The notes under the pieces: generated by a model
The model's database searches: none
Seen by the model: the letters and a program-made list of their open reading frames with translations, nothing else
Told to the model about the DNA's origin: nothing
Assembly (NCBI RefSeq): GCF_003430825.1
Contig: NZ_CP024047.1
Coordinates: 2,542,001-2,606,000 of the forward strand
Direction: 5' to 3'
DNA length: 64,000 nucleotides
Source: Natrarchaeobaculum sulfurireducens
GTDB taxonomy: Archaea; Halobacteriota; Halobacteria; Halobacteriales; Natrialbaceae
Program-made: the position numbers and the translations under genes
Shown: positions 292-48,858 of the stretch, in pieces
How the letters are laid out: every line of letters begins with the position of its first letter
Position numbering within the stretch: position 1 is the stretch's first letter

Positions 292-756
292 CTATGTCGG
301 CCCTGACCCCCGTCGTTTTCGCTCGCGATGGGCGCTGATCAGATGAAAGACGAGGAGGTAGCCGACGGCCGCGAGGACGAACGCGACCACCACGTTTCCG
401 ACCAGCAGCTGTCGAACGGCAAATCTGGCGGTTTCAGTGGCAGATCCGGCCGACTCGAGCGATGGCGTGTGAACGAACACGCCACCGACCTGAAAGCTCG
501 CGACGTAGACGACGGGTTTGATGAACGGGTTGAGGACCGCCACGGAGGCAAAGAGAGCTGGTTTACTGATCCAGGACCACACCGAGACGAGTACGAGAAA
601 GAGGCCGATCCCTAACCCACCCGTCGGTAGGGTCGTCACGAAGACGCCGATGGCGAAACTGATCGCGACCTCGTGTTCGGTGTGTTCTTCCCGAAACGCC
701 GCGGTGAGTTCGCGGCGGACCCGGTCACGATAACAGGCGACCCGTTCCCGAACCAT
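292..756 (-). CDS. DUF2062 family membrane protein
   Basis: A 154-residue protein with a DUF2062-like layout: an amphipathic N-terminus (residues 1-25), a helix with the PTGG motif (about residues 44-47), a second helix ending in NPFIKP (about residues 76-81), and a C-terminal transmembrane helix followed by a basic tail. DUF2062 proteins are small integral membrane proteins of unknown function, sometimes found with polysaccharide or cell-surface genes; no such context is seen here. The gene is monocistronic and convergent with the small protein at the window start. Confidence 0.75.
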   Translation of the reverse strand: MVRERVACYRDRVRRELTAAFREEHTEHEVAISFAIGVFVTTLPTGGLGIGLFLVLVSVWSWISKPALFASVAVLNPFIKPVVYVASFQVGGVFVHTPSLESAGSATETARFAVRQLLVGNVVVAFVLAAVGYLLVFHLISAHRERKRRGSGPT

Positions 757-933
757 TAGGCTCTGCCAACCGGTGTGCTGCGAATCTGATAAAGATGTCG
801 AGTCGTGCGAAAACGTATCAGCGTACAGCCGCGTTGGGGCGATACTGATACTGTCAGACAGAGATTACTGAAGAGGATTCGCCGGGTGGGTGCGACGAAT
901 TTTCACACTCGTTCTATCCGGCAGTCTGACGAC

Positions 934-2190
934 CTATGGGAACGTCCCAGCTTCGTCGAACGCGTCCGCGACCCGCTGGATCGCCACGACGTACGCAGCC
1001 GTCCGTGGGTTGTCGAGATCGTGTTCTTCGATCGTTCCGACGAGCGCGTCGAAGGCGTCGACGATGATCCCTTCGAGTTCCTCGTTGACTTTCTGTTCGG
1101 ACCAGTAGAACCGCTGACGGTTCTGGACCCACTCGAAGTACGAGACGGTGACGCCGCCGGCGTTCGCGAGAATGTCGGGGATGACGAAGACGTCCTCGTT
1201 CTCGAGTATGCGGTCGGCATCGGGCGTCAACGGGCCGTTAGCGGCCTCAGAGATGACGTCTGCGTTGATGTCGGTTGCGAGGTCGCCGTCGACTGCGTTC
1301 TCGAGGGCGGCAGGGATCAGGAGGTCGACGTCGAGGGTGAGGACCTCGTCGTTGGTGAGTTCGTCCTCGCTCTCCTCGTAGCCGACGATACTGCCGGTCT
1401 CGTTTTTGTACTGTTTGGCGGCGACGGGATCGAAACCGTCTGGATTGTAGATTCCGCCGGAAGAGTCACTCGCCGCGACGACCGTCGCACCCATCTCGTC
1501 GATCAGTTTGGCGGCGATCCAGCCGGCGTTCCCGTAGCCTTGGACGGCGACGGTTGCGCCCTCGAGGTCCTTCCCGAGATACTCGAACGCCTCTCGAGCG
1601 GCGAGGACAGTCGATCGACCCGTCGCCTCGACGCGACCCTCACTACCGCCACTGGCGAGGTGTTTGCCAGTGATGACACCCGGCTCCGTGGTGTTCTCGA
1701 GTGTCTCGTAGGTATCTTTGATCCAGTTCATCTCCCGCTGACCCGTGTTCACGTCCGGCGCGGGGATGTCGCGGTCTTCACCGATCATCGGACGCAACTC
1801 CTTCGCGAACGACCGGGTAAGACGCTCGAGTTCGGCCGTAGAGTATTCGTCGGGATCGACGACGATCCCGCCTTTTCCGCCGCCAAGTGGGATGTCGACG
1901 ATCGCCGTCTTGTACGTCATCCAGCCCGACAGCGCCTTCACTTCGTCGCGAGAGACCTGTGGGTGGTAGCGGATACCGCCTTTGTATGGACCGCGATCGC
2001 CGTTGAACTGCGAGCGAAACGCTTTGAATCGCTCGAGCGAGCCATCGTCGAGCTCGACCGTCAGATTCGTCTCGAGCACGCGCTCTGGATGCTTGAGGCG
2101 CTCGATGACGTCGGCTTCGACGTCGAGATACCCAGCCGCCTCGTCGATCTGCGACTGGAGGCTCTCGAACGGGTTGGCTGTCTCTGACAT
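934..2190 (-). CDS. gdhB: Glutamate dehydrogenase paralogue 1 (Glu/Leu/Phe/Val family)
   Basis: A 418-residue hexameric-type glutamate dehydrogenase, interconverting glutamate and 2-oxoglutarate plus ammonium. The N-terminal domain has the substrate lysine in PLGGGKGG (K106) and the catalytic aspartate in PAPDVNTG (D146). The C-terminal Rossmann domain starts near residue 214 with VQGYGNAG. Length is normal and no active-site residue is missing. A second paralogue lies 1.1 kb away, on the other side of a CitE-like lyase. A TATA-like box at 2214-2222 sits about 28 bases before the ATG, which predicts a leaderless transcript and supports this start. Cofactor preference cannot be settled by eye, and the gdhB symbol is by analogy with multi-gdh haloarchaea. 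Confidence 0.93.
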
Positions 2191-2213
2191 TGTCTGGGGG
2201 TTCCGAGGTCACC

Positions 2214-2222
2214 GAAATAAGC
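2214..2222 (-). promoter_or_regulatory. TATA box of glutamate dehydrogenase 1
   Basis: The minus strand reads GCTTATTTC, centred about 28 bases upstream of the ATG at 2190. That is the spacing of a leaderless haloarchaeal promoter. Confidence 0.5.
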
Positions 2223-2337
2223 ATTTTGAAAGCCAATTAGTAAATAATATCCAATATAAGGTGTAGTGAGATGGTTATATTCTGTGTAGCCGTGGGCGGT
2301 CGTTCCGTTCTAGCGATTCCGCTCGTCCGATGGCGGC

Positions 2338-3198
2338 TTACTTCCGATGGTTGGCGGCACGGGTGCGCTCGAGGATGCGTTCGGCCTGGGCGATCAGCGG
2401 TGCATCGATCATCTCGCCGTCGACCTCGAAGACGCCCCGACCCGCTTTGTCGGCCTCGCGTTTGGCCTCGAGGACGGCTTCGGCCCATTCACGCTCCTCG
2501 ATCGACGGCGTAAACGCCTCGTTGATCGGGGCGACCTGTGCCGGATGGATCGCCAGTTTGCCGTCGTATCCAAGCTGGACGGAAACAGCCGCGTCCTCGC
2601 GCAGTCGCTCGTCGTTCCCGAAATCGGTGACGAGGGTGTCGATCGCCACACAGTCGTGAGCGGCCGCCGCGACCACCGCCCGCTGGCGGGCGTAAAGTAC
2701 CTCCGTCCCCTCCGGCGTTCGAGTCGCACCGAGGTCAGCGGAGAGGTCCTCGGCCCCGAACACCAGCGCGTCGGTCGCCTCGGCGGCGGCGACGTCCGGG
2801 GCAGCGAGGATACCCGCGGCGCTCTCGAGGAGCGCGAGGACGGGGCGGGGTTCGTCGTGGGCCTCGAGTTCGGCTTCGAGTTCGTCGATGTCGGCTGCAG
2901 ACTCGACTTTGGGGAGCATGACACTATCGAGGCGAAGGCTGGTGCTGTCTTCGAGGAGTACCGCGAGATCGTCGCCGAACGCCTCGCTCGAGGCGTTGAG
3001 GCGGACGCAGACTTCACAGTCGGGATCGAACGCGGAATCGGAGAGGACCTCGCGGACCGTCGTCCGGGCTTCGCCCTTTCGATCGGGCGAGACGGCGTCT
3101 TCGAGATCGAAGACGATCACGTCGGCACCGGAGTCGGCTGCCTTGCGAAGCATCTCAGGACGGTCACCGGGTGTAAACAGGACGCTTCTGCGGACCAT
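2338..3198 (-). CDS. HpcH/HpaI-family CoA-ester lyase (CitE-like; malyl-, methylmalyl- or citramalyl-CoA lyase)
   Basis: A 286-residue TIM-barrel lyase of the CitE/L-malyl-CoA lyase group. Visible landmarks in order are RSVLFTPGDRP at the N-terminus, VIFDLEDAV-like VIVFDLEDAV (about residues 28-37), the RLN and PKVES substrate/metal segments (about 65 and 95-100), LLESAAG, FGAEDLSADLG, and GYDGKLAIHPAQ near residue 230. The family cleaves or forms 3-hydroxyacyl-CoA esters with Mg2+. Haloarchaeal members serve in the methylaspartate cycle (methylmalyl-CoA to glyoxylate plus propionyl-CoA) or as thioester-type malate synthase partners. Flanking glutamate dehydrogenases and the nearby MaoC hydratase favour such a route, but the substrate is inferred. 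A TATA-like element at 3218-3225 supports the start. Confidence 0.85.
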   Translation of the reverse strand: MVRRSVLFTPGDRPEMLRKAADSGADVIVFDLEDAVSPDRKGEARTTVREVLSDSAFDPDCEVCVRLNASSEAFGDDLAVLLEDSTSLRLDSVMLPKVESAADIDELEAELEAHDEPRPVLALLESAAGILAAPDVAAAEATDALVFGAEDLSADLGATRTPEGTEVLYARQRAVVAAAAHDCVAIDTLVTDFGNDERLREDAAVSVQLGYDGKLAIHPAQVAPINEAFTPSIEEREWAEAVLEAKREADKAGRGVFEVDGEMIDAPLIAQAERILERTRAANHRK

Positions 3199-3217
3199 AC
3201 GGGAAGTCCACCGGCCG

Positions 3218-3225
3218 TAAATAAA
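3218..3225 (-). promoter_or_regulatory. TATA box of the CitE-like lyase
   Basis: The minus strand reads TTTATTTA about 24 bases before the ATG at 3198, so the lyase has its own promoter and a leaderless start despite standing between two co-oriented gdh genes. Confidence 0.5.
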
Positions 3226-3306
3226 GGAATGCTGGGAAAATCGTATGGGATGGACGTCAGGTCCGATCGAGCGCGGAGAAGACTGATCGAGAGCGAACGG
3301 ACCGAG

Positions 3307-4581
3307 TCAGGGCCAGAGACCGCGAGCGTCGTGCGCTGCCGCGATGCGTGAGAGAGCAACGATGTACGTTGCATCGCGCCACGTGACGTCGCGGGCGTCG
3401 TACTCCGCACAGATCGCGTCCCAGGCGCTGAGCATCTCGGTCTCGAGTTCCTCGTTGACGCGCTCGAGCGACCATTTGCGGCGGTTGATGTCCTGGAGCC
3501 ACTCGAAGTACGAGACGGTGACGCCGCCGGCGTTGGCGATGATGTCGGGAATCACCGCCACGCCGCGCTCTTCGAAGATCTGGTCGGCCGTCGACGTGGT
3601 CGGGCCGTTCGCGCCCTCGACGATCAGGTCGGCTTTGACCTCGCGAGCGTTCTCGGCCGTGAGGACGTTCCCGATCGCCGCCGGGATGAGGATGTCCACG
3701 TCCAGCTCGAGCAGTGCCTCGTTCGAGAGCGTCTCGGGAGCGTCGTAGCCCGAGACCATGCCGGGCGTCTCGTCGTGGTCTTCGACGTCGTTAGTGTCGA
3801 GTCCGTCCGGGTCATAGATTGCGCCGTCCACGTCGGAGACAGCGACGATCGAGGCACCGAGGTCGTCGAGGTAGCGTGCGGCGTTCGCACCGACGCTGCC
3901 GAAGCCCTGGACGGCGATAGTCAGGTCTTCGATGTCCCAGCCGTAGTAGTCGATCGCCTCCCGAGTGATGATGCCGACGCTTCGTCCCGGTGCCTTCTCA
4001 CGTCCGTACGAACCGCCAACGACCGGCGGTTTGCCGGTAACGACGCCCGGCGATGTCTCGCCCTCTTGCATCGAGTAGGCGTCCATGAACCAGGCCATCG
4101 TGGCCGGATCGGTCCCCATGTCGGGGGCAGGGATGTCCTTCATCGGTCCGATGACCGGGCGGAGTTCCTCGGCGAAGCGACGCGTAAGACGCTCTTTCTC
4201 GGCCGAGCTGAGCGTTTTCGGGTTGACGACGACGCCTCCCTTCGCGCCGCCAAACGGGAGGTCCATTACGGCACACTTCCAGGTCATCCACATCGCGAGT
4301 CCCACACACTCCTCTTCGGTCACGTCGGGGTGGTAGCGCAGCCCGCCTTTGTACGGGCCACGAACGCTGTCGTGGTGGGCGCGATAGCCCGTGAACATCT
4401 CCCTGGTCCCGTCGTCGCGTTCGAGCGGGATCGTCACCCGGAAGACGTTCCGGGGATGGCGCAGTCGCTCGACGATGCCCTCGTCGACGTCGAGGTGAGC
4501 AGCGGCCCGCTCGAGCTGTCTGCGGGCTGTTTCGACGGCACTCTCCTCGTTCGGTTCCGATTTCGGGTTAGCTGTTGTCAT
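3307..4581 (-). CDS. gdhA: Glutamate dehydrogenase paralogue 2
   Basis: A 424-residue Glu/Leu/Phe/Val dehydrogenase from the ATG at 4581. The open frame runs upstream to a GTG at 4683, but those extra 34 residues are non-acidic and not family-like, and that GTG lies beside a probable TATA box, so the internal ATG is preferred. The substrate lysine lies in PFGGAKGG (K114), the catalytic aspartate in PAPDMGTD (D154), and the nucleotide-binding motif is VQGFGSVG. It differs from paralogue 1 at many sites, notably [12 protein letters not shown] where paralogue 1 has [12 protein letters not shown], so the two may differ in cofactor or direction. An extra regulatory palindrome lies upstream (4715-4731). 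Confidence 0.92.
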
Positions 4582-4685
4582 ACTGGTGGCCCCCACGTCG
4601 AAGTGCCACCCGGGTTGACGGGAGTCGACAAATCCGTACCCAGGCGACGGCTCGCGGGTTATGGTATGAGAATTTCCGATCACCA

Positions 4686-4694
4686 GCTATAACC
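4686..4694 (-). promoter_or_regulatory. Probable TATA box of glutamate dehydrogenase 2
   Basis: The minus strand reads GGTTATAGC. Transcription would start near 4664 and leave a leader of about 80 bases before the ATG at 4581, unlike the leaderless neighbours. Confidence 0.35.
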
Positions 4695-4714
4695 CTTGTC
4701 ACTGGACGCCGGTT

Positions 4715-4731
4715 CGTGCAATATTTGCACG
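4715..4731. promoter_or_regulatory. 17-bp perfect inverted repeat, candidate operator
   Basis: CGTGCAA-TAT-TTGCACG has seven-base arms that match perfectly around a three-base centre. It lies in the divergent gap between glutamate dehydrogenase 2 and the MaoC gene, about 25 bases upstream of the probable gdh TATA box and about 90 bases upstream of the MaoC TATA box. Size and placement suit a dimeric helix-turn-helix regulator. The regulator is unknown. Confidence 0.5.
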
Positions 4732-4818
4732 ACTCACGTTCGCATCGCGCTGATGGGACACCCTGGAGGGGGGGTAACGGACGCTCGACGGAGACAGCCT
4801 CGCCACGGCCCAACACGC

Positions 4819-4826
4819 TTTAGTAT
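4819..4826 (+). promoter_or_regulatory. TATA box of the MaoC hydratase gene
   Basis: TTTAGTAT lies about 26 bases before the ATG at 4848, so a leaderless transcript is likely. Confidence 0.45.
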
Positions 4827-4847
4827 CGGGTCGCCGACACTGTCGCT

Positions 4848-5306
4848 ATGACTGGGCTCTACTACGAGGAGTTCGAGGTCGGCCGGACGATCGAACACGA
4901 GCGCCGTCGAACGATCAGCGAGAGCGACAATCAGCGTTTTTGTGATATGACGATGAACCAGCAGCCGTTACACCTGGATCAAGAGTTCGCTGCCGACACC
5001 GACTTCGGCGAGCGCCTGGTCAACGGCCTCTACACGATGAGCCTCGCCGTCGGGATCTCCATCCCCGAGACGACCGACGGTACGATCGTCGCGAACCTCT
5101 CGTACGACGACGTCGAACATCCGGCACCGGTCTTCCACGGCGATACCATCCGCGTCCAGTCGACGGTCACCGACAAGCGCGAGACCAGCGACGGCGAACG
5201 CGGCATCGTCACCATGCACGTCGAGGTGTTCAACCAGGACGACGAGCTCGTCTGTGCGTTCGATCGCACCGTTCTCTCGCTGAAACGCCACCGAGCCGAG
5301 ACGTAG
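4848..5306 (+). CDS. Single-domain MaoC-type enoyl-CoA hydratase (mesaconyl/itaconyl-CoA type?)
   Basis: A 152-residue hot-dog-fold protein of the MaoC/R-specific hydratase superfamily. The active-site loop reads TMNQQPLHLD (about residues 31-40). Canonical R-hydratases have an aspartate and histidine in GDxNPxHxD; here the histidine is kept but the aspartate position is asparagine. As I recall, that TMNxxPLH form also occurs in MaoC proteins encoded beside CitE-like lyases, where the pair acts on mesaconyl-, itaconyl- or citramalyl-CoA. Its divergent position next to gdh-citE-gdh therefore suggests hydration of an unsaturated C5 CoA ester feeding the lyase. The substrate is inferred; a generic acyl-CoA hydratase remains possible. 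Confidence 0.8.
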   Translation: MTGLYYEEFEVGRTIEHERRRTISESDNQRFCDMTMNQQPLHLDQEFAADTDFGERLVNGLYTMSLAVGISIPETTDGTIVANLSYDDVEHPAPVFHGDTIRVQSTVTDKRETSDGERGIVTMHVEVFNQDDELVCAFDRTVLSLKRHRAET

Positions 5307-5334
5307 TCGCCGGCCTCGAGACGCGGGGCCGGAC

Positions 5335-5685
5335 TCACACCACTGACGAGATCATATACAGGTTGATACCGACGGCGATCGTCCACGGGATCGCGAGCCC
5401 GGCGGGGACGATCGGTTTGTACACATCGGGGAGGATCGGTCGACAGGCCAGGCCGACACCAACCGCCAACGTCTTCAGTGCGAGCATCCCGGCCAGTCCG
5501 TAGCCGTCGATCGCGCTCCGTGCGATGGGGTTCGATTCTGCCAGTCCAAGGTGGAGGCCCACGAACGTCGTTACGACGTCCCCAACGAGCGAGAGCGCGA
5601 CGAGTGCCCAGAGCGCCCGCTCGAGGGCGGCCGGCGTGACGTCGATGGGAATGCGGTGGTGTGAGTACGCACCGTCGGAACTCAT
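5335..5685 (-). CDS. DUF5658-like small integral membrane protein
   Basis: A 116-residue protein with three to four predicted membrane helices. It begins with a short polar segment, then a helix ending in GDVVTTFVGL, followed by the motif ESNPIARS (about residues 54-61) and two further helices. The D-TT...E-NP pattern is characteristic of the DUF5658 group, whose role is unknown. It is convergent with the MaoC gene, ending 29 bases after it, and is transcribed in the same direction as the carboxylase upstream of it but separated by 286 bases without clear features. Confidence 0.65.
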   Translation of the reverse strand: MSSDGAYSHHRIPIDVTPAALERALWALVALSLVGDVVTTFVGLHLGLAESNPIARSAIDGYGLAGMLALKTLAVGVGLACRPILPDVYKPIVPAGLAIPWTIAVGINLYMISSVV

Positions 5686-5971
5686 AGGCTCCCCGCCGGA
5701 GTCGAACCGGCTGTCGCCGTCGAGAGCGAGTACGCTCCGCTACAGGCGACGTGTGTTTTGTTATGGCAAGCGTAGACGACCGTCACCGATCGGTAAGCAC
5801 TGATAACCGAGACGATGGCGGCCGCTCGAGAACGAGACACAACGAGTAGGCCGTGCTACAAATCGGTTCGACGGGTGGGGCACACTACCGATCTGTGCAG
5901 CGAATGCAGGTTCGCAGGATCAGGGTGGGCGCGACGAGAATCGCCCTCGAGACGAGCCTCGACGGTGCCCG

Positions 5972-7753
5972 CTACAGGATGGTTCCGTGTTTTTTGCTCG
6001 GGAGTGACTTTTCGACATCGGCGTAGAAGTCGAATCGGGCGACGAGTTCCCGGCGCAGCTCGCTCGGGGGAACGATCTCGTCGACGACGACTTCGCTCGC
6101 CATTCGGTGGATGTCGATGTCCTCGCGGTACTCCTCACGGAGTTGTTGGGCTCGGCGGTCGCGTTCGTCGGGATCGTCGATCTCGGCGAGTTTGCGCGCG
6201 TAGACGGCATTGATCGCCGCTTCAGGACCCATAATCGCGATCTCGCCGGAGGGGAGGCCAATGACACTCTCGGGGTCGTACGCCGGGCCGCCCATCGCGT
6301 AGATGCCAGCGCCGTAGGCCTTGCGGACGACGACGGTCTGTTTCGGTACCGTCGCCGATGAGGTGGCGTAGATCATCTTCTTGCCCTGTTCTAAGATCCC
6401 CTCCTTTTCGACCTGTGAGCCGGCCATGAAGCCGGGCGTATCACAGAGGTAGAGTAAGGGGATGTTGAACGCGTCCGACTTCCAGATGAACTCGGCGGCC
6501 TTTTCTGCGGCGTCGGGGAAGATCGCACCCGCGCGGGTGGCGGGCTGATTCGCGACGATACCGACGGGACGGCCGTCGATCCGGGCGTAGGCCGTGATGA
6601 TCTCTGCGCCGTAGTCGGGTCGTAACTCGAAATACGAGCCTTCGTCGACGATCCGATCGATGACGTCCACCATGTCGTATCCCTTGTTCGGCTCCTGTGG
6701 AACGACGGCGTCGATGCCCTCGGGCGACTTCGCGGGCGGTTTACCCGCTTTCTGTGGCGGCGTCTCGTCGGCGTTATCCGGCAGGTACGTAATGAGTTGG
6801 GCGACCAGCTCGCGGGCGTGTTCTTCGTCCCGGGCGACGAGGTCCGCGGAGCCGGACTCGCGGGCGTGGACCTGCGGGCCACCCAACTCCTCGAGGTCGA
6901 TCTCTTCGCCGGTGACCATCTGAACCATCCGCGGGCTGGCGATCGCCATCGCGGACATCCCTTCGACCATGATCGTAAAGTCCGCGAATACCGGCGTGTA
7001 GGCCGCCCCGGCGATACAGGGACCATAAAGGACACAGATCTGGGGGACTCGACCCGAGAGCATCGAGTGGTTGTAGTAGTATTTCCCGATGCCCTCGCGG
7101 TTGGCGAAGAAGCCGGTCTGCTGGTCGATCCGGCCGCCGGAGGAGTCCATCAGGTAGAGGACGGGCTGGCCGGTCTTCAGCGCGCGTTGTTGCATCCGGA
7201 GGAACTTCTCGACGCCTTTTGCGGCCATACTCCCGCGTTTGACGGTGTAGTCGTTGGCCATGAAGTGCAGATCCCGACCCTCGAAGGTCGCTCCACCGGT
7301 GATGAGGCCGTCCGCGGGCAGCCTGTCGTCCGTCTCCTCGCCGACGCCGTCGGGGTGCCAGTCGTCGAAGGCCGCGAACGTGCCGTCTTCGAAGAGAAAG
7401 GCATCGTCTTCGCCACCAAACCAGAGGTCGAGGCGGTCACGGACGAAGAGTTTGTCCTCCTCCGGGAGCTGTTCGCGATACTTCTCTGGCCCCCCCTCGA
7501 GGATGTCTTCGATTTCGTCTCTGAGCCGTCGTTCACGGCTGGTCGGCTCGAGCGCTGGCTCGTCTGAGTCGCCGTCCCTCGCGGTCGACGCGTCGCCGTC
7601 GTCGTTCGAGCGCCCCTCGTGGTCGTAGACGACAGTCGGTTCCGACGCATCACCGACGTATACCTCGACCGAGTCACCGAGGTGTGCGGCCAGGGCAGCC
7701 GCGATCGCCGAGACTTCGTCGTCGGTTGCACCCTGTGCGATACGGATGTCCAT
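5972..7753 (-). CDS. Acyl-CoA carboxylase carboxyltransferase subunit with N-terminal epsilon/PccX-like domain
   Basis: A 593-residue protein. Residues 1 to about 45 (MDIRIAQGATDDEVSAIAAA and following) resemble the tiny epsilon subunit of actinobacterial acyl-CoA carboxylases and haloarchaeal PccX, then an acidic linker (46-75) leads into a complete carboxyltransferase with both crotonase-like halves. The biotin/acyl-CoA loops SSGGRIDQQ and KAYGAGIYAMGGPAYD (about residue 480) are present. The latter resembles 3-methylcrotonyl/geranyl-type subunits (GAGNYxMCGRAY) more than propionyl-type ones (GGAYDVM). The enzyme carboxylates an acyl-CoA using a biotinylated alpha subunit, which is not in the window. 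A TATA box at 7776-7783 supports the start. The usual beta subunit is near 510-530 residues, so this is about 70 longer at the N-terminus. Confidence 0.88.
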   Translation of the reverse strand: MDIRIAQGATDDEVSAIAAALAAHLGDSVEVYVGDASEPTVVYDHEGRSNDDGDASTARDGDSDEPALEPTSRERRLRDEIEDILEGGPEKYREQLPEEDKLFVRDRLDLWFGGEDDAFLFEDGTFAAFDDWHPDGVGEETDDRLPADGLITGGATFEGRDLHFMANDYTVKRGSMAAKGVEKFLRMQQRALKTGQPVLYLMDSSGGRIDQQTGFFANREGIGKYYYNHSMLSGRVPQICVLYGPCIAGAAYTPVFADFTIMVEGMSAMAIASPRMVQMVTGEEIDLEELGGPQVHARESGSADLVARDEEHARELVAQLITYLPDNADETPPQKAGKPPAKSPEGIDAVVPQEPNKGYDMVDVIDRIVDEGSYFELRPDYGAEIITAYARIDGRPVGIVANQPATRAGAIFPDAAEKAAEFIWKSDAFNIPLLYLCDTPGFMAGSQVEKEGILEQGKKMIYATSSATVPKQTVVVRKAYGAGIYAMGGPAYDPESVIGLPSGEIAIMGPEAAINAVYARKLAEIDDPDERDRRAQQLREEYREDIDIHRMASEVVVDEIVPPSELRRELVARFDFYADVEKSLPSKKHGTIL

Positions 7754-7775
7754 ATATCACAGTGAGTATGGGCAG

Positions 7776-7783
7776 GTAAAAAG
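7776..7783 (-). promoter_or_regulatory. TATA box of the carboxyltransferase gene
   Basis: The minus strand reads CTTTTTAC about 26 bases before the ATG at 7753, consistent with a leaderless transcript. Confidence 0.4.
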
Positions 7784-7818
7784 GCATTCAGGTGACGGGA
7801 TCGGTCGGGAGCGAGAAT

Positions 7819-7971
7819 CGAACCGAAAGCAGAGAGTTCGGTTCGCACGGGAGAACCACCGGGCGAGCGCCGCGCCGACGGTCGGGGGAGAGTTGAGTCG
7901 AACCGGGGAGACGAGTCGCTGTCTCCGTGGTCACCAACACGGAGACATCGTACGCTCGAGGCCACTCGAGC
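7819..7971. other. Non-coding stretch with a series of perfect hairpins
   Basis: No credible gene lies between 7754 and 8246. Within it are three perfect inverted repeats: CGAACCGAA/TTCGGTTCG (7819-7827 and 7837-7845, nine-base loop), a ten-base stem TGTCTCCGTG/CACGGAGACA (7920-7929 and 7938-7947, eight-base loop) and GCTCGAG/CTCGAGC (7954-7960 and 7965-7971, GCCA loop). GGAGAC at 7907-7912 can pair instead with GTCTCC at 7921-7926, competing with the second stem. The rest of the gap (7972-8246) shows nothing beyond a weak promoter-like CGTTTTCAAG before the protease gene. It could be a small RNA, a leader or a bidirectional terminator. Confidence 0.45.
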
Positions 7972-8246
7972 ACGAATGTTCGTCTTCGGTCGTTCAGGTA
8001 TTATGTGATGAACAGGCGCAGTGACTTCTGTCCGACAGTACGACACGCGAGCCGGTAACTGGCGACTTCCGTCCACTCGGACCCAACAGAACCGACTGCC
8101 GGAACGGAGACAGCTGACAGCAGGTGCAAGCGCTGTGGCTTTCGACGGTTTTGCACTACCTACCAGTAGCTATCGACCACCCCGTGTACGTGAACATTAG
8201 CTTTGACCGAACGGGGCGCACCGTTTTCAAGCACCGAGACACCGGT

Positions 8247-9419
8247 ATGTCAGGAGAACGTACGGAGCGCTCCGGGAGCCGAGCTGCAGGTCTTCGGAAT
8301 CGACTCGAGTCAGGGATCGACCGTCGGGAGTTCCTTCGGACCGCTGCCAGCGGCGGCTTTGCGGTCGGGCTGGCGTCGGTGCTCGGCGTCGACGACTTCC
8401 TCGCGGCTGACGACGACGAGGTGACCGTCGTCACCGCGGTAGTCCGATCTGATCCCGACGATCCGTTCTCACTCGAGGAACGAACCCGGGACGTCCCAGC
8501 AGGCTGGTACGAGGCCGTCGAGACGGCCCTCGAGGTGAACGAGTTGCTGGCTCGATACGCCTTTACGGGGTATTTCGGCAGCGCGGTGGTCCCCGGAAGC
8601 TACGAGAGCGAAAGCGCGGCCGTCTCGATCGGCGTCTCGACTGAGGGGAGTTCGATTCCCGAGATGGTCCGCGAAGTGGCCGACGGGATCTCGATCAATG
8701 CCGAAACGATCGTCGACATCGACAACCTCGAGGAGGGACCCGACTCGACTCGACCGCGGTTGGCTTCGTCCGTCGACGGCGGGACGGCACCGAGCGGCGT
8801 CGCGTGCGAGACACCCTCGAGTATGGCGACGCTCGCACCGGCGCTTTATCATCCTGACGGGGAGCGGTCGTTCTTCGCCACGGCAGAACACGCGTTCGAG
8901 GCGGTCTCAGACCCAGTCGGTCAGGAGACCTTGCTTCCGGTCGAGGGTGCCGAGTCGATCGAACTCGGGACCGTCGAACGTGCCCACCCCGTCGAAGACG
9001 TCGCTGCGATCGAGCCCACCGGGCCACTCCAACCTGCAAGCTGGATCGACGCTCCGACCACCCGGCGCGTCCGCGGACAGCTCACCCGGTACGGAATCGC
9101 CGATCTCATCGCCCGCGACGAGGAACTCGAGAAAGTCGGTGCGCTTACCGGGCATACGACCGGTCGCATTCAGGGTCTCGACGCTGTCACCTGTTTCACC
9201 GACGAGTTCTGCCGGCGCGGCCAACTGCGCTGGGGTGGCGAGATGGATCTGACCGACGGCGATAGCGGCTCCGTCAGCTACCACTCCGACCCGGAGGGTG
9301 ACGACGAGGACGTCCTCGTCGCGGGATTCAACAACGCCCGCACGTGGTGGCCGGGCCAGAGCTACGTCTGGGGCGTTTCCGCCTACACGCTCACCGAGGA
9401 GTATGGCTATCACTTCTGA
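8247..9419 (+). CDS. Tat-exported trypsin-fold serine protease-like protein
   Basis: A 390-residue protein from the ATG at 8247; an earlier in-frame GTG (8124) adds a non-halophilic extension and is rejected. A twin-arginine signal DRREFLRTAASGG (RR at 26-27) precedes a hydrophobic segment ending near residue 50. The mature part resembles a chymotrypsin-fold peptidase: TAEHAF (His near 214, like the TAAHC box), EDVAAI (Asp near 250) and DGDSGS (Ser near 339, the classic GDSGG-type site). The triad is therefore complete in order and spacing. An acidic, Ser-rich insert (about 165-190) precedes the histidine. It probably acts outside the cell after folded export. A small membrane protein gene follows 30 bases later. 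The protease assignment rests on motifs only. Confidence 0.7.
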   Translation: MSGERTERSGSRAAGLRNRLESGIDRREFLRTAASGGFAVGLASVLGVDDFLAADDDEVTVVTAVVRSDPDDPFSLEERTRDVPAGWYEAVETALEVNELLARYAFTGYFGSAVVPGSYESESAAVSIGVSTEGSSIPEMVREVADGISINAETIVDIDNLEEGPDSTRPRLASSVDGGTAPSGVACETPSSMATLAPALYHPDGERSFFATAEHAFEAVSDPVGQETLLPVEGAESIELGTVERAHPVEDVAAIEPTGPLQPASWIDAPTTRRVRGQLTRYGIADLIARDEELEKVGALTGHTTGRIQGLDAVTCFTDEFCRRGQLRWGGEMDLTDGDSGSVSYHSDPEGDDEDVLVAGFNNARTWWPGQSYVWGVSAYTLTEEYGYHF

Positions 9420-43586: not shown

Positions 43587-46427
43587 TCAATCGATCCGAA
43601 TAGCGGGTTTTCCCGGTCGAGCTTTCGCCGCCAGGTCGTCGTCGTCCGTCGCTCGTCGAACCACGACGTCGACGTCGAACTCGTCGGTGAGTAGCCAACT
43701 CGTTCGCTCGAGGATCGCACGTTCGTCGCCGGCAGGGAGGAACTGGTCCAGTCCGCTGCGGGTGGTCCGCTCGACCAGATCGCCAACGAACGTTCCCAGC
43801 GTCTCGCGGTCGGGTACATCGATGCCTGCTGTCTGTGCACGCTCTACGATTGCATCGCCTTCGATCGGCTCGCCGTCGGCGCGGTCGGCAGCCAGTTCGG
43901 CGACCCGGTACTTCCACTCGGGGGCGACGACCAGTTCGATCCGCGCCGGTTCGTCGATTGCGGCGACGTCGACGATGTCGCGAACGTCCTCGAGCGTCGT
44001 CTCGACGAACCGTCGTTCCGTCGCGTAGTCGGCAACGTCGGCCTCGGGTTCGGGCCAGTCGGCCTCGACGACCAGGCCGTCGCCGCGGAGTTTGTTCCAG
44101 AGTTCTTCGGCGAGGTGCGGCGCCATCGGCGCGATCAACGCGGCGAGCGTCAGCAGGCCGCGGCGATAGATCTCACCGTGTGGACGGTCGTACGCGCGGT
44201 AGCGTCGCAGGAGTCGGGCCAGTTCCTGAATCTCCGTGGCCGCCCGGTGAAAGCGAAATCGCTCGTACTCGTCGGCGACTGCGGCGATCGTCCGGTCGAT
44301 CTCGCGGGCGACGAACTCGTCGTGGATTTCGGACTCGACGCGGGTGTGTCCTTCGTCGACGAACTCGGTCGCCATCCCATACAGCGTCTGTTGGAGGTCG
44401 TACGCGCCGCGGACGTTATTCGCCGTCCACTCGAAATCCTGCTCGGGGTGAGCCGCCGAGAGAACGAACAACCGGGTCGTCTCCGCACCGTACTCGAGCG
44501 GTGCGACCACGTTCCCCTTCGAGGTCGACATCTTCTCGCCGTCGTACAGCACCGTCCCCTGGCTGATGAGGCGCTCGACGGGTTCACGAACCTCGAGCAG
44601 TCCGAGATCGGCAAGCGCCCGCATCATAAACCGGATGTATAGCAGGTGCAAGACGGCGTGTTCGTCGCCACCGACGTAGACGTCGATCGGCAACGCGTCG
44701 TTCGCCAGCTCGGCGTCGAACGGCGCGTCCTCGAGGTCGGGCGAGAGGAACCGAAGGAAGTACCACGAGGAGTCGACGAACGTGTCCATCGTGTCGGTTT
44801 CGCGCTCGGCTGGGCCGCCACAGTCCGGACACTCGGTGTGGCGAAACGACTCGTGTTCGGCCAGCGGATTCCCCGTCGTGTGGACGAACTCCGGCAACTC
44901 GACGGGCAACTCTTCGTCGGGGACGGGCACGTGCCCGCAATCGTCACAGTGGACGACCGGGATCGGCGTCCCCCAGTAGCGCTGTCTGGAGATGAGCCAG
45001 TCTCTGAGTCGGTAGATGACGTCCTCCTCGATCGCCGCGACGTCCGCGAGGAGTCGCTCACGGGCCGTCTCGCTTTCGAGGCCGTCGTACTCGCCGCTTG
45101 CCTCGAGGATCCCCTCGCCAGTGTAGGGTTCGTCTTCGAGGTCGACGTCGACGGTCGCGTCTTTCGGCGTGATCACGCTCTCGATCGGCAGCCCGTGCTC
45201 GCTAGCGAACGCGTGGTCACGCTCGTTGTGCGCCGGAACGCCCATCACGGCTCCCGTCCCGACGTCCTCGAGGACGTAGCCGGCGACGTACACCGGCAGT
45301 TCCTCGCCGGTCAGGGGGTGGACCGCCGTCGCGTCAGTCGCGATACCCGAGAAGCCGACCGCTTCTGGGGGACGCTCCCTAACCGTCTCGACGTATTCGC
45401 GGACGGCTTCATCGGCGTCGGCCAGTTCCCGTGCGAGGTCGTGACCCGGCGACACCGCGAGGTACGTCGCCCCGTAAATCGTCTCCGGTCGGGTGCTGAA
45501 GACGTCGACAGTGCCGTCGGCGGCATCTGACCCCTGGGTCCCGTTGCCCCGTGGGTCGGCTTCATCCCCGCTCGGCTCCGCCAATCCGTCATGTGGCTCG
45601 CTCACCTCGAACGCGATTCGAACGCCCTCTTGTCGACCGATCCAGTTGCGCTGGATCTCGCGGACACCCTCGGGCCACTCCTCGAGGCCCTCGAGGGCGT
45701 CGTGAAGTTCTTCGGCGTAGTCGGTGATCGCGAAAAACCACTGGTCGAGTTCGCGACGGCCTACCGGCGTCTCACAGCGCCAGCAGACGCGTTCGACCTC
45801 GCGGCTCGCGGCTTCGCCGCTCGCTCCATTCGAGGTCTCACTTTGCTCGACCTCGCGGCCCTCGGCTTCGCCGCTCGCTCTAGTAGCGGCCTCACTACGT
45901 TCGGCCTCTCGTTCCTCCACCTGGGCTTCCGCAAGCACCGTTTCACAGTCGGGACACCAGTTGACCGACGCGGCTTCGTACTCGACGAGCCCTGCCTCGT
46001 AGAGGCGCTTGAAGAGCCACTGGTTCCACTGGTAGTAGTCGGGTTCGCAGGTCGTGATCTCACGCGACCAGTCGTAGCCAAAGCCCATCGTCTCGAGCTC
46101 TTCGCGCATTCGGCGGATACAGGCCTGGGTCCAGGACTCGGGGTCGCTCGCCCGCTCGTAGGCGGCATTTTCTGCTGGAAGGCCGAACGCGTCCCACCCC
46201 ATCGGGTGGAGCACGTCGTCGCCGCACATTCGACGATAGCGGGCGTGGGCGTCCGTAATCGCGTAGTTGCGGACGTGTCCCATGTGGAGCGTTCCCGACG
46301 TGTATGGAAACATCCCGAGGACGTACGTCGGGTCGTCGACGTCGGGGTCGAGCTCGTAGACCTCGTCGCGCTCCCAGACGTATTGCCAGAACTCCTGCAC
46401 CTGCGCGTGATCGTAATGACTCGTCAT
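43587..46427 (-). CDS. leuS: Leucyl-tRNA synthetase with low-complexity insertions
   Basis: A 946-residue class I synthetase that charges tRNA-Leu. It has the HIGH-type HMGH (residues 48-51), a zinc-binding pair (CPDC near 155 and CWRC near 210), the editing domain with DSSWY-type motifs and KMSTS (near 632). Two insertions are unlike usual LeuRS. One (about residues 170-208) sits between the two CxxC of the zinc module and is an 18-residue tandem repeat. The other (about 275-305) is in the linker before the STRPETIYG editing motif. Both are charged, disordered sequence. All catalytic motifs are intact, so the enzyme should be functional. Confidence 0.97.
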   Translation of the reverse strand: MTSHYDHAQVQEFWQYVWERDEVYELDPDVDDPTYVLGMFPYTSGTLHMGHVRNYAITDAHARYRRMCGDDVLHPMGWDAFGLPAENAAYERASDPESWTQACIRRMREELETMGFGYDWSREITTCEPDYYQWNQWLFKRLYEAGLVEYEAASVNWCPDCETVLAEAQVEEREAERSEAATRASGEAEGREVEQSETSNGASGEAASREVERVCWRCETPVGRRELDQWFFAITDYAEELHDALEGLEEWPEGVREIQRNWIGRQEGVRIAFEVSEPHDGLAEPSGDEADPRGNGTQGSDAADGTVDVFSTRPETIYGATYLAVSPGHDLARELADADEAVREYVETVRERPPEAVGFSGIATDATAVHPLTGEELPVYVAGYVLEDVGTGAVMGVPAHNERDHAFASEHGLPIESVITPKDATVDVDLEDEPYTGEGILEASGEYDGLESETARERLLADVAAIEEDVIYRLRDWLISRQRYWGTPIPVVHCDDCGHVPVPDEELPVELPEFVHTTGNPLAEHESFRHTECPDCGGPAERETDTMDTFVDSSWYFLRFLSPDLEDAPFDAELANDALPIDVYVGGDEHAVLHLLYIRFMMRALADLGLLEVREPVERLISQGTVLYDGEKMSTSKGNVVAPLEYGAETTRLFVLSAAHPEQDFEWTANNVRGAYDLQQTLYGMATEFVDEGHTRVESEIHDEFVAREIDRTIAAVADEYERFRFHRAATEIQELARLLRRYRAYDRPHGEIYRRGLLTLAALIAPMAPHLAEELWNKLRGDGLVVEADWPEPEADVADYATERRFVETTLEDVRDIVDVAAIDEPARIELVVAPEWKYRVAELAADRADGEPIEGDAIVERAQTAGIDVPDRETLGTFVGDLVERTTRSGLDQFLPAGDERAILERTSWLLTDEFDVDVVVRRATDDDDLAAKARPGKPAIRID
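45792..45911 (-). repeat. 54-bp tandem repeat in leuS encoding an 18-residue unit
   Basis: Two copies (45858-45911 and 45804-45857) and the start of a third (to 45792) encode REAERSEAATRASGEAEG and REVEQSETSNGASGEAAS. Both contain a small hairpin-forming core, GCTTCGCCGC-like. The period is a multiple of three, so the frame is kept. Confidence 0.8.
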
Positions 46428-46642: not shown

Positions 46643-46658
46643 TGTAAAATATTTTACA
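46643..46658. repeat. Perfect 16-bp palindrome next to a tRNA 3' fragment
   Basis: TGTAAAATATTTTACA is a fully self-complementary sequence in otherwise GC-rich DNA. It ends exactly where the duplicated tRNA-Gln 3' end begins (46659). It may serve as an AT-rich terminator for the tRNA, a protein-binding site, or the scar of an integration. Confidence 0.6.
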
Positions 46659-46682
46659 TAGTCCCGGGCGGATTCGAACCGC
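46659..46682 (-). pseudogene. Orphan copy of the tRNA-Gln 3' end (attachment-site-like fragment)
   Basis: These 24 bases are identical to 46761-46784, the T-arm and acceptor 3' side of tRNA-Gln down to the discriminator base. No tRNA body precedes it. More tRNA-like TTCGA pieces lie between the two copies. Such exact 3'-end duplications are left by integrative elements that target tRNA genes. Confidence 0.6.
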
Positions 46683-46760
46683 GAGGACTCGAATCCTCTC
46701 GTCCTCTGGGCTCGAACCGCCGAGGATACTTGCGCCTCACGAGTTTGTTCGGCGCAAAAG

Positions 46761-46863
46761 TAGTCCCGGGCGGATTCGAACCGCCGTCCTGGGCTTGCTT
46801 CCGTGACGGCCGTAACCGAACACGTCCAAAGGCCCAGATGATTGGCCACTACACCACGGGACT
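46761..46863 (-). tRNA. trnQ: tRNA-Gln (TTG) with a 30-base intron
   Basis: The mature tRNA is formed by 46826-46863 and 46761-46795. The acceptor arms AGTCCCG/CGGGACT pair, and the T arm is GGCGG-TTCGAAT-CCGCC. The anticodon stem TGGGC/GCCCA encloses CTTTGGA with anticodon TTG (glutamine). The intron, about 46796-46825, sits after position 37; the exact boundary can shift by one base. Its CGTG/CACG pairing gives the central helix of the archaeal bulge-helix-bulge recognised by splicing endonuclease. Intron-bearing tRNA-Gln is known from haloarchaea. Confidence 0.9.
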
Positions 46864-46904: not shown

Positions 46905-47654
46905 TTACTTTTCGCCGTCGGGCGACAGCGTGATCGCCCCGTCTTCGACACGTCGGTGACAGCTCCGACAGAGTGTAATCACGTTGTCCATCGTATGTGC
47001 CTGTTCGGGCTGATCGAACGACCGAACTGGTCGGCGGTGATGAACGTCTGGGTTTCGGCCGATCTCGTCCCGCCCAATCCCGCAGTGTTGACACTCGTAG
47101 TCGTCGCGCTCGAGCGCCTGACGCCGGATGCGCCACCACGATCGGCCGTACTCGATCGGTCCGCCTTCCCACTGGTGGTGATCGGGGCCGACGACGTTCT
47201 CGGAGAGCCACTCGCTGTGGCATCTCCGTGAGCAGAAACAGCCCTGTGTTCGCTTCTCGAGCAGTCTGGGACGAACCTCGAGTGTCACACCACAGGTTCG
47301 ACAGTCGGTTGTGACGCGCGCTCCCTTTTCAGACGGATTCTCTGGGAGGAGCCCGTCCGCTGTCTCGACGCAGTCCGGACAGTACACACCGGGCTTGTCC
47401 GAGGGGTAGTACTCGAACGCCGAGTCGCACAGTTTACACGACGCCGTCTCCGTGCCACCGTTCCAGTTGCCGTTGTGCTCGCCCGCGTTCGGATTGCAGT
47501 CCGAACAGAATTTCCGGCGGGATTTCGGATCGTAGAACTCGGTCCCACACCCAGTACAGCTGCGGTTTGGGAGCGGTTCGCCGTGGACTTTGGTGTGGTG
47601 CTGGCGCATCCCACATTCCGTCGCGAGAGACGTACCACACGTCGGACACTCCAT
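46905..47654 (-). CDS. Multi-zinc-finger HNH endonuclease-like protein
   Basis: A 249-residue protein from ATG 47654 (the frame continues upstream but overlaps the aminotransferase and lacks fingers). It has a C2H2 finger (CPTC...HHTKVH, residues 3-24), then CTGC/CSDC, CKLC/CPDC and CRTC/CSRRC pairs, and a C-terminal HNH domain with CQHC, the catalytic HHRRPV, DNVITLCRSCHRR. HNH enzymes nick or cut DNA; the tandem fingers probably give sequence or structure recognition. It lies 42 bases upstream of tRNA-Gln, in the same direction. Its target is unknown; its role may be mobile-element related or host defence, which is unproven. Confidence 0.8.
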   Translation of the reverse strand: MECPTCGTSLATECGMRQHHTKVHGEPLPNRSCTGCGTEFYDPKSRRKFCSDCNPNAGEHNGNWNGGTETASCKLCDSAFEYYPSDKPGVYCPDCVETADGLLPENPSEKGARVTTDCRTCGVTLEVRPRLLEKRTQGCFCSRRCHSEWLSENVVGPDHHQWEGGPIEYGRSWWRIRRQALERDDYECQHCGIGRDEIGRNPDVHHRRPVRSFDQPEQAHTMDNVITLCRSCHRRVEDGAITLSPDGEK

Positions 47655-47709
47655 ACCCCCGTTCGCTTCGCTATCGCAGATAAACTCGAGGAGCCGAAAC
47701 CGATCCGGT

Positions 47710-48858
47710 CTAGAGGTAGCCTTCCTCGGCCAGTCGTTCGATGCCCTCGCGGAGGCGCTCCTCGCTTGCGGCGTAGGAGATCCGGGCATAGCCTGGCGTG
47801 CCGAACGCGCTGCCGGGGACGGTCGCGACGTGGGCGTCTTCGATGGCTCCCTCACACCAGGCCTGATCGTCGTCGTCGACGGGGAGCATCATGTAGAAAG
47901 CGCCCTCGGGGACGGCGACGTCGACGTCGTGTTCGGCGAGTAACTCGACGACCAACTCACGCCGCTGTTCGAAGGCCTCGACCATCTCGGCGACGGCGTC
48001 GTCGGTGTTCTCGAGCGCTTCGATGCCGGCGTGCTGGACGAAGTTGACGGCCGAGGAGACGGAGTGGCTGTGGAGCTTGCCAGCCTGGTCGATCAGTTCC
48101 TCGGGGCCGGCGAAGTAGCCGAGCCGCCAACCGGTCATCGAGTAGGCCTTCGAGAAGCCGTTGACCGTGATCGTGCGGTCGGCCATCCCCTCGAGGGCTC
48201 CGAGACTCGTCGGCTCGACGCCGTAGGTAATCTCCTTGTAGATCTCGTCGGAGATGACGGTGATATCGTGTTCGACGGCCAGGTCGCGAACGCCTTCGAG
48301 TGCGGCGTCCGTGTAGACGGCACCGGTGGGGTTCGACGGCGAATTGACGATCAACAGGTCGGTGTCGTCGGAGACGGCGTCGGCGAGTTCGTCGAGTGCG
48401 GGCTCGAGCTGGAAGTCGTGGGGAGAGAGGTCGACGCGGGTGAGATCGCCGCCGGCCATCTTCACCATCGCTTCGTACGAAACCCACGCGGGGTCGAGCA
48501 GGACGGCCTCGTCGCCTTCCTGTACGAGGGCGTGGATGACTTCGTACAGCGCCTGTTTCGCGCCGGGCGTGACGATGACTTCGTCGGTGGTGTGCTCGAG
48601 ACCGTCGTCGGCGAGTTTGTCGACGATGGCTTCACGGAGTGCGAGGATACCGGCGGAGGTGGTGTAGCCGGTGTGGCCGGCGTCCATCGCGGCCTTGCCG
48701 GCCTCGACGACGTTCTCGGGCGTCGGGAAGTCCGGCTCGCCGACGGAGAGGTCGACAACGTCGGCGCCGTCGTTTTCGAGTTCGGTCGCGAGTGCGGAGA
48801 TCGCGAGGGTTGCGGACGGTTCGACTCGGGTTACGCGGTCGGTGAATTCCATGGACAT
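47710..48858 (-). CDS. PLP-dependent aminotransferase (aspartate aminotransferase-like)
   Basis: A 382-residue class I/II aminotransferase. The PLP lysine lies in VNGFSKAYSMTGWRLGYFAG (Lys near 233), and SPSNPTGAVY (near 173) and the C-terminal arginine in YARISYAASEE are family typical. It transfers the amino group between amino acids and 2-oxo acids such as oxaloacetate or phenylpyruvate; the exact substrate is open. The gene begins 13 bases after ribH in the same direction, so the two are likely in one transcript. An ATG two codons later (48852) is an alternative start. Confidence 0.92.
   Translation of the reverse strand: MSMEFTDRVTRVEPSATLAISALATELENDGADVVDLSVGEPDFPTPENVVEAGKAAMDAGHTGYTTSAGILALREAIVDKLADDGLEHTTDEVIVTPGAKQALYEVIHALVQEGDEAVLLDPAWVSYEAMVKMAGGDLTRVDLSPHDFQLEPALDELADAVSDDTDLLIVNSPSNPTGAVYTDAALEGVRDLAVEHDITVISDEIYKEITYGVEPTSLGALEGMADRTITVNGFSKAYSMTGWRLGYFAGPEELIDQAGKLHSHSVSSAVNFVQHAGIEALENTDDAVAEMVEAFEQRRELVVELLAEHDVDVAVPEGAFYMMLPVDDDDQAWCEGAIEDAHVATVPGSAFGTPGYARISYAASEERLREGIERLAEEGYL

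Follow-up and report, generated by a model that had tools for sequence, protein, structure and literature searches.

A complete 102-bp unit, in which an 82-bp cassette is followed by the final 20 nt of the adjacent tRNA in a second copy, was found directly behind the tRNA-Gln gene at 46659-46760 (minus strand) of the window, by which we mean the whole stretch of 64,000 nt that was analyzed. Units of the same plan stand behind Leu, Val, Pro and Trp tRNAs in relatives, and altogether units occur behind the tRNA genes for most amino acids. The 82-bp cassette is the element itself and a member of a large family. Judging from sequence comparisons, we regard it as probable, though by a modest degree, that the unit is a gene-less, non-autonomous mobile hairpin cassette of Halobacteriales which is placed at tRNA 3' ends. 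A hairpin element of about 100 letters with a matching local tRNA end, spread across salt-loving archaea, is seemingly undescribed; a literature search, with subscription journals and preprints outside its coverage, returned no description of such units, and an Rfam search of the window and six array loci returned tRNA only and left the unit without a match.

The 24-nt sequence TAGTCCCGGGCGGATTCGAACCGC occurs at 46659-46682 and again, without any mismatch, at 46761-46784 (102 nt from start to start), which confirms the observation of a first-pass annotation that the final 24 bases of tRNA-Gln are repeated exactly at a distance of 102 bases downstream. It is the sole exact 24-mer direct repeat with a spacing of at most 300 nt in the window, and no such repeat within 300 nt was observed in 20 block shuffles of the window. 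One of the copies is the intact 3' end of an intron-containing tRNA-Gln(UUG) gene (46761-46863, minus strand; intron about 30 nt), which was assigned from a match to Rfam RF00005 (45.9 bits), from the sequence and from the intron calls in relatives. With default settings ARAGORN missed this gene in the window; with introns allowed it called the corresponding gene of relatives tRNA-Gln(TTG) and gave it an intron of about 30 nt, and with long introns allowed it misplaced the 3' end of the tRNA-Gln of the window at the outer copy, so that tRNA annotation is affected as well. The perfect 16-bp AT-rich palindrome TGTAAAATATTTTACA, unstranded at 46643-46658, which the annotation had described as touching the outer copy, is present and is not part of the unit: in a genome of the same genus (G002) tRNA-Gln runs straight into TGTAAAATATTTTACA without a unit, and the palindrome is therefore the native tRNA-Gln trailer. 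Taken alone it would be weak evidence, because the window contains six perfect 16-bp palindromes (1.9 per shuffle). Directly upstream of tRNA-Gln lies an HNH endonuclease gene (Pfam HNH; 46905-47855, minus strand) with zinc-ribbon-like cysteines, and DNA similar to this gene region is found upstream of tRNA-Gln in several relatives. In the leuS gene (leucyl-tRNA synthetase frame) an in-frame GC-rich insertion with repeated hairpin sequence of the gcgagcg/cgaagc type was observed at about 45780-45925.

Read along the minus strand, on which all parts of the unit lie, the locus comprises tRNA-Gln, the 82-bp cassette and tRNA bases 54-73 once more. Since the unit starts after tRNA base 73 and ends with the copy of bases 54-73, the tRNA stays intact. 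The cassette opens with hairpin 1 (46729-46758), in which a 7-bp stem is followed by a tandem G.A step, a step of two base pairs and a loop; its pattern GA-AC-loop-GT-GA combines the tandem G.A with a covarying R-C/G-Y pair. Then comes the anti-T (46712-46721), an inverse copy of the T-arm that pairs, according to the fold and to the comparison of own with other tRNAs, with the T-arm copy of its own unit, leaving one bulged base. The inner stem-loop of hairpin 2 (46683-46706) has the stem GAGGAC/GTCCTC and a GA...GA internal loop as in hairpin 1, and such cores are common to units at different tRNAs; the predicted closure of hairpin 2 is the inverse T-arm copy paired with the T-arm copy at the unit end. 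The outer copy itself covers T54-N73 (20 nt, 46659-46678), with exact identity reaching 24 nt (46659-46682). As RNA the 102 nt fold with -55.3 kcal/mol (z -6.03; none of 200 shuffles was as good) and as DNA with a z value of -3.60, and the hairpin of anti-T and T-copy at the cassette boundary is predicted for RNA as well as for DNA. The TTCGA-type tRNA pieces that had been noted between the two copies are indeed there, but they belong to an ordered hairpin element. Units stack in tandem, each with a covarying tandem-GA hairpin, a local inverse T-arm copy and a second hairpin, and the cassette has a median length of 96 bp in the family compared with 82 bp in the window. An ordinary tandem duplication of tRNA-Gln is ruled out, as the unit holds bases 54-73 only, together with a hairpin cassette. 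The apical core loops at many tRNAs (GA-RC-GNA-GY-GA, e.g. GAGCGAAGCGAG and GAACGAAGTGAG) show the tandem-GA design of hairpin 1 once more, and we take them to resemble the very stable DNA mini-hairpin GCGNAGC.

Searching the 231-bp region in 125 genomes of the family gave matches in 124 of them, and tRNA-Gln followed by a unit of the same 102-bp spacing and sequence was counted by hand in about 44 of the 125 among the matches listed. Within the same genus, one relative (G001) carries the unit at tRNA-Gln and the other (G002) represents an empty site, although the latter could also have lost its unit when the two 24-bp repeats recombined. In some relatives tRNA-Gln is followed by a tandem of two different units. 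According to the first-pass annotation the duplicated end was the scar of a lost or nearly lost element, a reading against which the same spacing in relatives without a larger element would speak. Such spacing is found in the part of the family just mentioned. What holds is that the duplicated end marks an insertion at a tRNA gene, as seen from the empty site in the same genus; a remnant of a larger lost element it is not, given the recurrence of the unit in relatives and behind the tRNAs for most amino acids. The reading as a scar was only partly right, and the duplicated tRNA end does not go back to one lost virus. That a single larger integrated element left this scar would agree with the exact 3'-end duplication and with the large elements present at tRNA-Gln in relatives, but we give it hardly any credence, as the unit recurs across many genera and tRNAs and the large elements have different ends.

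Where larger elements were found at such loci elsewhere, they are located between the tRNA and displaced units, so that elements and units are distinct. Two of them, of 19 kb (L051, G007) and 3.6 kb (L047, G053), lie between tRNA-Gln and the units and end with ...CAGCCCCGCCCGGGACTA, a far boundary that differs from that of the units. At G000:C3:1121259-1159881 (L066, L232, L245) a unit stands behind a displaced tRNA-Glu(CTC) 3' end about 38.5 kb downstream of the gene; the region between contains the cas1 gene of the genome (1146659-1147474) and looks like a true integrated island that displaced the unit. In the tRNA-Gln array of another relative (L046, G102) the positions from about 480 to 8300 form an island of 8 kb that contains two DNA methylases together with a restriction gene of the GmrSD type. 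It is flanked by a hairpin-1-like start and an end of anti-T, hairpin 2 and T-copy, and is possibly a gene-bearing version of the cassette. For the unit-less tRNAs of the genome of the window, 20 stretches of about 19 kb, located downstream of 20 such genes, contained no distant copy of the tRNA end.

For the distribution of the units we relied on hairpin 1, of which 38 copies were aligned (two of the 40 found were left out). In these copies 96.5% of 342 pair cells are formed and 71 double changes occur, which none of 500 shuffles equalled, where the preselection of copies for at least 5 of 8 stem pairs inflates the pairing but not the A-U/G-C (R-Y) covariation of the loop, which was left free. 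A covariance model built from the aligned copies (R1) scored hairpin 1 of the window with 46.1 bits (E 9.1e-10) and found 13 matches at E ≤ 0.05 in the genome of the window. Eleven of these lie directly behind tRNA genes or inside a unit array (Gln, His (twice), Lys CTT, Ile, Val TAC, Leu TAG, Gly GCC, Gly TCC, Lys TTT and Glu TTC), and the remaining two lie behind displaced tRNA ends, namely a Glu(CTC) end and a sequence resembling the Trp end. R1 matched 124 of 125 genomes of the family (E ≤ 0.01) and 204 of 293 genomes from 62 of 87 genera of the order (E ≤ 0.001); in a sample of the phylum all 38 matching genomes out of 294 came from the order itself, Halobacteriales, and none from outside. 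Applying the exact pattern to 84,980 species we found 22 loci, all of them haloarchaea by title. Haloarcula japonica and Natrinema thermotolerans are among the species with units. A tRNA on the same strand within 1500 nt upstream was present at 18 of these, and at 3 of the other 4 the match lies less than 360 bases from the edge of the DNA examined. ARAGORN reported a tRNA at 28 of the 30 best-scoring family loci (L079-L108), and of 28 further loci, taken from three genomes that belong to other families, 19 had a same-strand tRNA within 1500 nt upstream. No or very few units were observed in G017 and in the genera g2 and g7 of the family. Two scans of viral contigs gave 8 and 0 pattern matches, none of them found behind a tRNA, and the cassette had no match in phage and plasmid collections.

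Next, we examined how closely the copied end fits the local tRNA. In the genome of the window, 18 of 43 tRNA genes have their own last 20 nt copied within 300 nt (at most 3 mismatches), compared to 1 of 1692 in the swapped control, in which the ends of other tRNAs were searched at the same places. This count includes a correction that again gives 18 of 43: Gly CCC (+123) was dropped as its copy belongs to a neighbouring second tRNA gene, and Gln was added, which the scan had missed because ARAGORN took the outer copy as the gene end. Over all loci 189 unit entries were parsed, a few of them false; the parser is noisy, in that the entries for L112 and L117 include neighbouring tRNA genes, and several Gln genes were mislabelled Glu, Pro or Lys, so that the 31 tRNA labels are an upper bound. 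Exact identity to the tRNA end was seen in 82 of 135 first copies and in 20 of 42 second copies. Inverse stretches that match exactly over 11 nt or more were found in 42 of 186 units when compared with the own tRNA end and in 24 of 1860 comparisons with other tRNAs. In 45 units the copy has changed; of their inverse copies 25 have the better fit to the intact tRNA, 10 have it to the changed copy and 10 fit both equally. As the better fit is more often to the intact tRNA, pairing within the unit is not clearly under continuing selection. One clear compensatory case was observed (Leu GAG, G221 compared with G344). An extra C in the copied T-loop (TTCACAATC or TTCACGATC instead of TTCAAATC) occurs in Thr, Phe, Asp, Trp, Lys, Pro and Arg units (L079, L081, L114, L157, L174, L262, L264 and L275), with the remaining copy largely intact.

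Several observations point to movement. In a genome of another genus (G046) the cassette is 100% identical over 82 bp, while the flank upstream of the gene reaches 74.4% identity over 1116 nt and the flank on the far side does not align with the window. Conversely, two genomes (G028 and G027) have flanks that are 95.1% identical and cassettes that are 85-86% identical, and over 56 non-independent pairs the identity of cassette and flank gave a Spearman coefficient of -0.26. Among units at tRNAs with different ends (at least 5 of 20 positions), 69 pairs have exact stretches of 22-43 nt in common, of which 35 lie in the core rather than in hairpin 1. Between the close relatives G344 and G221 the arrays at Leu(GAG) and Met differ by an extra tRNA-proximal unit in G344; the extra Met unit is a chimaera that combines hairpin 1 and spacer from one neighbour with the core of a different one. 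Compared to G307, a third close relative, G344 has an extra middle unit at Ser(GGA). Taken together, the foreign backgrounds, the differing tRNA ends, the gain or loss of whole units in arrays and the empty site of G002 support, at the level of sequence, a horizontal spread of the cassettes, although the array changes and chimaeric units could stem from ordinary recombination between repeats, and the presence of units in a genome is no proof of present-day movement.

The same data bear on two readings without a dedicated recombinase. The units could be immobile, structured tRNA trailers selected by the host for processing, termination, stability or as small RNA, as might be expected from the strong RNA fold (z -6.03), the covarying stems, the location directly after tRNA base 73 and the order-wide presence. 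We consider this unlikely, as units are patchy at the same tRNA between and within genera, many tRNAs of the same genome have none, copies decay or are repeated in tandem, and cassette identity is unrelated to flank identity. Alternatively, template switching at quasi-palindromic T-arms together with homologous recombination among the copies may have produced the arrays. T-arms are natural quasi-palindromes, the inverse copies fit each tRNA, and the near-identical tandem His units and the chimaeras resemble products of recombination; however, the exact T54 and N73 boundaries across many kinds of tRNA are hard to obtain by random switching, and neither the conserved hairpin 1 with its covarying stem nor the sharp restriction to one order fits well, which leaves this a rather improbable origin.

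A further possibility, which we would not expect to hold, is an integron-like reaction. Here a haloarchaeal tyrosine integrase would use the T-arm (G^TTCRAATC) as double-stranded site and the hairpin of anti-T and T-copy as an attC-like single-stranded site, and cassettes circulating as small circles would be inserted beside the tRNA. In 173 of 189 parsed units a G precedes the copy, the hairpin arm has a recurrent one-base bulge (seen in the fold and in TCACAATC copies), and the chimaeric Met unit of G344 is what one would expect from a one-unit circle reinserted at the tRNA. The attC R box is GTTRRRY, to which the units have no exact match, and they also lack an integrase gene. Moreover, a new type of tRNA would receive the old acceptor strand in such a reaction, whereas foreign ends are practically absent (the 1 of 1692 above). 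That archaeal tyrosine recombinases commonly use tRNA genes as sites, as stated in PMC8371274, speaks in its favour.

For the non-autonomous mobile cassette that we prefer, a putative recombinase supplied in trans would insert the cassette at tRNA base 73, and the insertion would duplicate or regenerate the last 20 nt (bases 54-73). The intermediate may be single-stranded, cruciform or circular. By pairing with the T-arm copy, the inverse T-arm copy would create a folded site of attachment which imitates the end of the tRNA and fits the cassette to its target, the inverse copy serving as part of the folded site or as a guide. The near absence of foreign tRNA ends from the arrays favours a target duplication over a foreign end that is carried in. 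Neither an enzyme for the reaction nor a circular or excised form of the cassette was seen. With respect to the resident enzyme two candidates were rejected. Cas1 occurs in just 40 of 125 family genomes, compared to 124 of 125 with units, and of the 17 family genomes without a Y1 transposase in the order sample 16 carry units; the units are tracked by neither protein, and both are therefore ruled out in this role. The Cas1 count also weighs on a casposon- or CRISPR-like scheme, in which a Cas1-family integrase would duplicate 20 nt, the tRNA acting as the leader and the tRNA 3' end as the repeat. The geometry of leader, repeat, insert and repeat is the same, and according to PMC6614799 the casposase of A. 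boonei has the 3' end of a tRNA-Pro gene as its target and requires an upstream TCAAATC motif, which resembles the T-loop. Casposon duplications are, however, 14-15 bp long with the motif outside according to the same source, while the unit copy has 20 nt with the T-loop inside, and together with the scarcity of Cas1 this makes the scheme very improbable. A more speculative, in our view unlikely form is a guided system of gene-less cassettes, in which the inverse T-arm segment of a structured single strand (DNA or RNA) recognises one tRNA gene and directs a hairpin cassette of about 80-100 nt exactly to the 3' end of that gene. CRISPR- or integron-like arrays would result, headed by the tRNA as a leader and with the tRNA 3' end in the role of the repeat, and a changed guide would re-target the cassette, which would place the same cores behind many tRNAs with matched ends.

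If the preferred reading of a mobile cassette is true, arrays of a tiny, target-matched element stand behind a large share of the tRNA genes in one archaeal order and escaped notice owing to the shortness of the element, its lack of coding sequence and its location within tRNA trailers. The element would represent a new way by which DNA is inserted precisely at the ends of tRNA genes and possibly account for how tRNA 3' ends became hot spots of integration, and a duplicated tRNA end in haloarchaea would not need to signal a lost provirus.

Finally, we compared the unit with known systems, none of which fits as its family. Integron cassettes with attC are likewise arranged in tandem and end in hairpins whose arms are inverse copies of the recombination site; the unit differs in that integrase and open reading frame are absent, its site is the T-arm of many tRNA genes and it copies the last 20 nt of the tRNA. 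We know of no tRNA targeting by the miniature elements called PATEs. Like these IS200/IS605-derived elements, for which PMC3119063 describes small, non-coding members with near-terminal hairpins in haloarchaea, and like REP sequences, the unit is small and non-coding and carries near-terminal hairpins; unlike PATEs, which duplicate no target according to the same source, it has a 20-nt target copy and a strict position at the tRNA end, and it is present in Y1-less genomes (16 of 17). With casposons and CRISPR arrays it shares target duplication and the tandem geometry of repeat, insert and repeat, with casposons also the tRNA 3' end as target; in contrast to them it has neither Cas1 nor terminal inverted repeats, its insert is a conserved hairpin, its copy starts at T54 and includes the T-loop (14-15 bp with TCAAATC outside in casposons; PMC6614799), and most of its hosts lack Cas1. 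In tRNA-targeted integrative elements such as proviruses and plasmids the tRNA 3' end is regenerated and a copy remains at the far side, and the duplicated 3' end of the target tRNA is present at the far boundary of the unit as well. Such elements encode an integrase, whereas the 82-bp cassette contains no open reading frame or gene, and the units form tandem arrays at the tRNAs for most amino acids.
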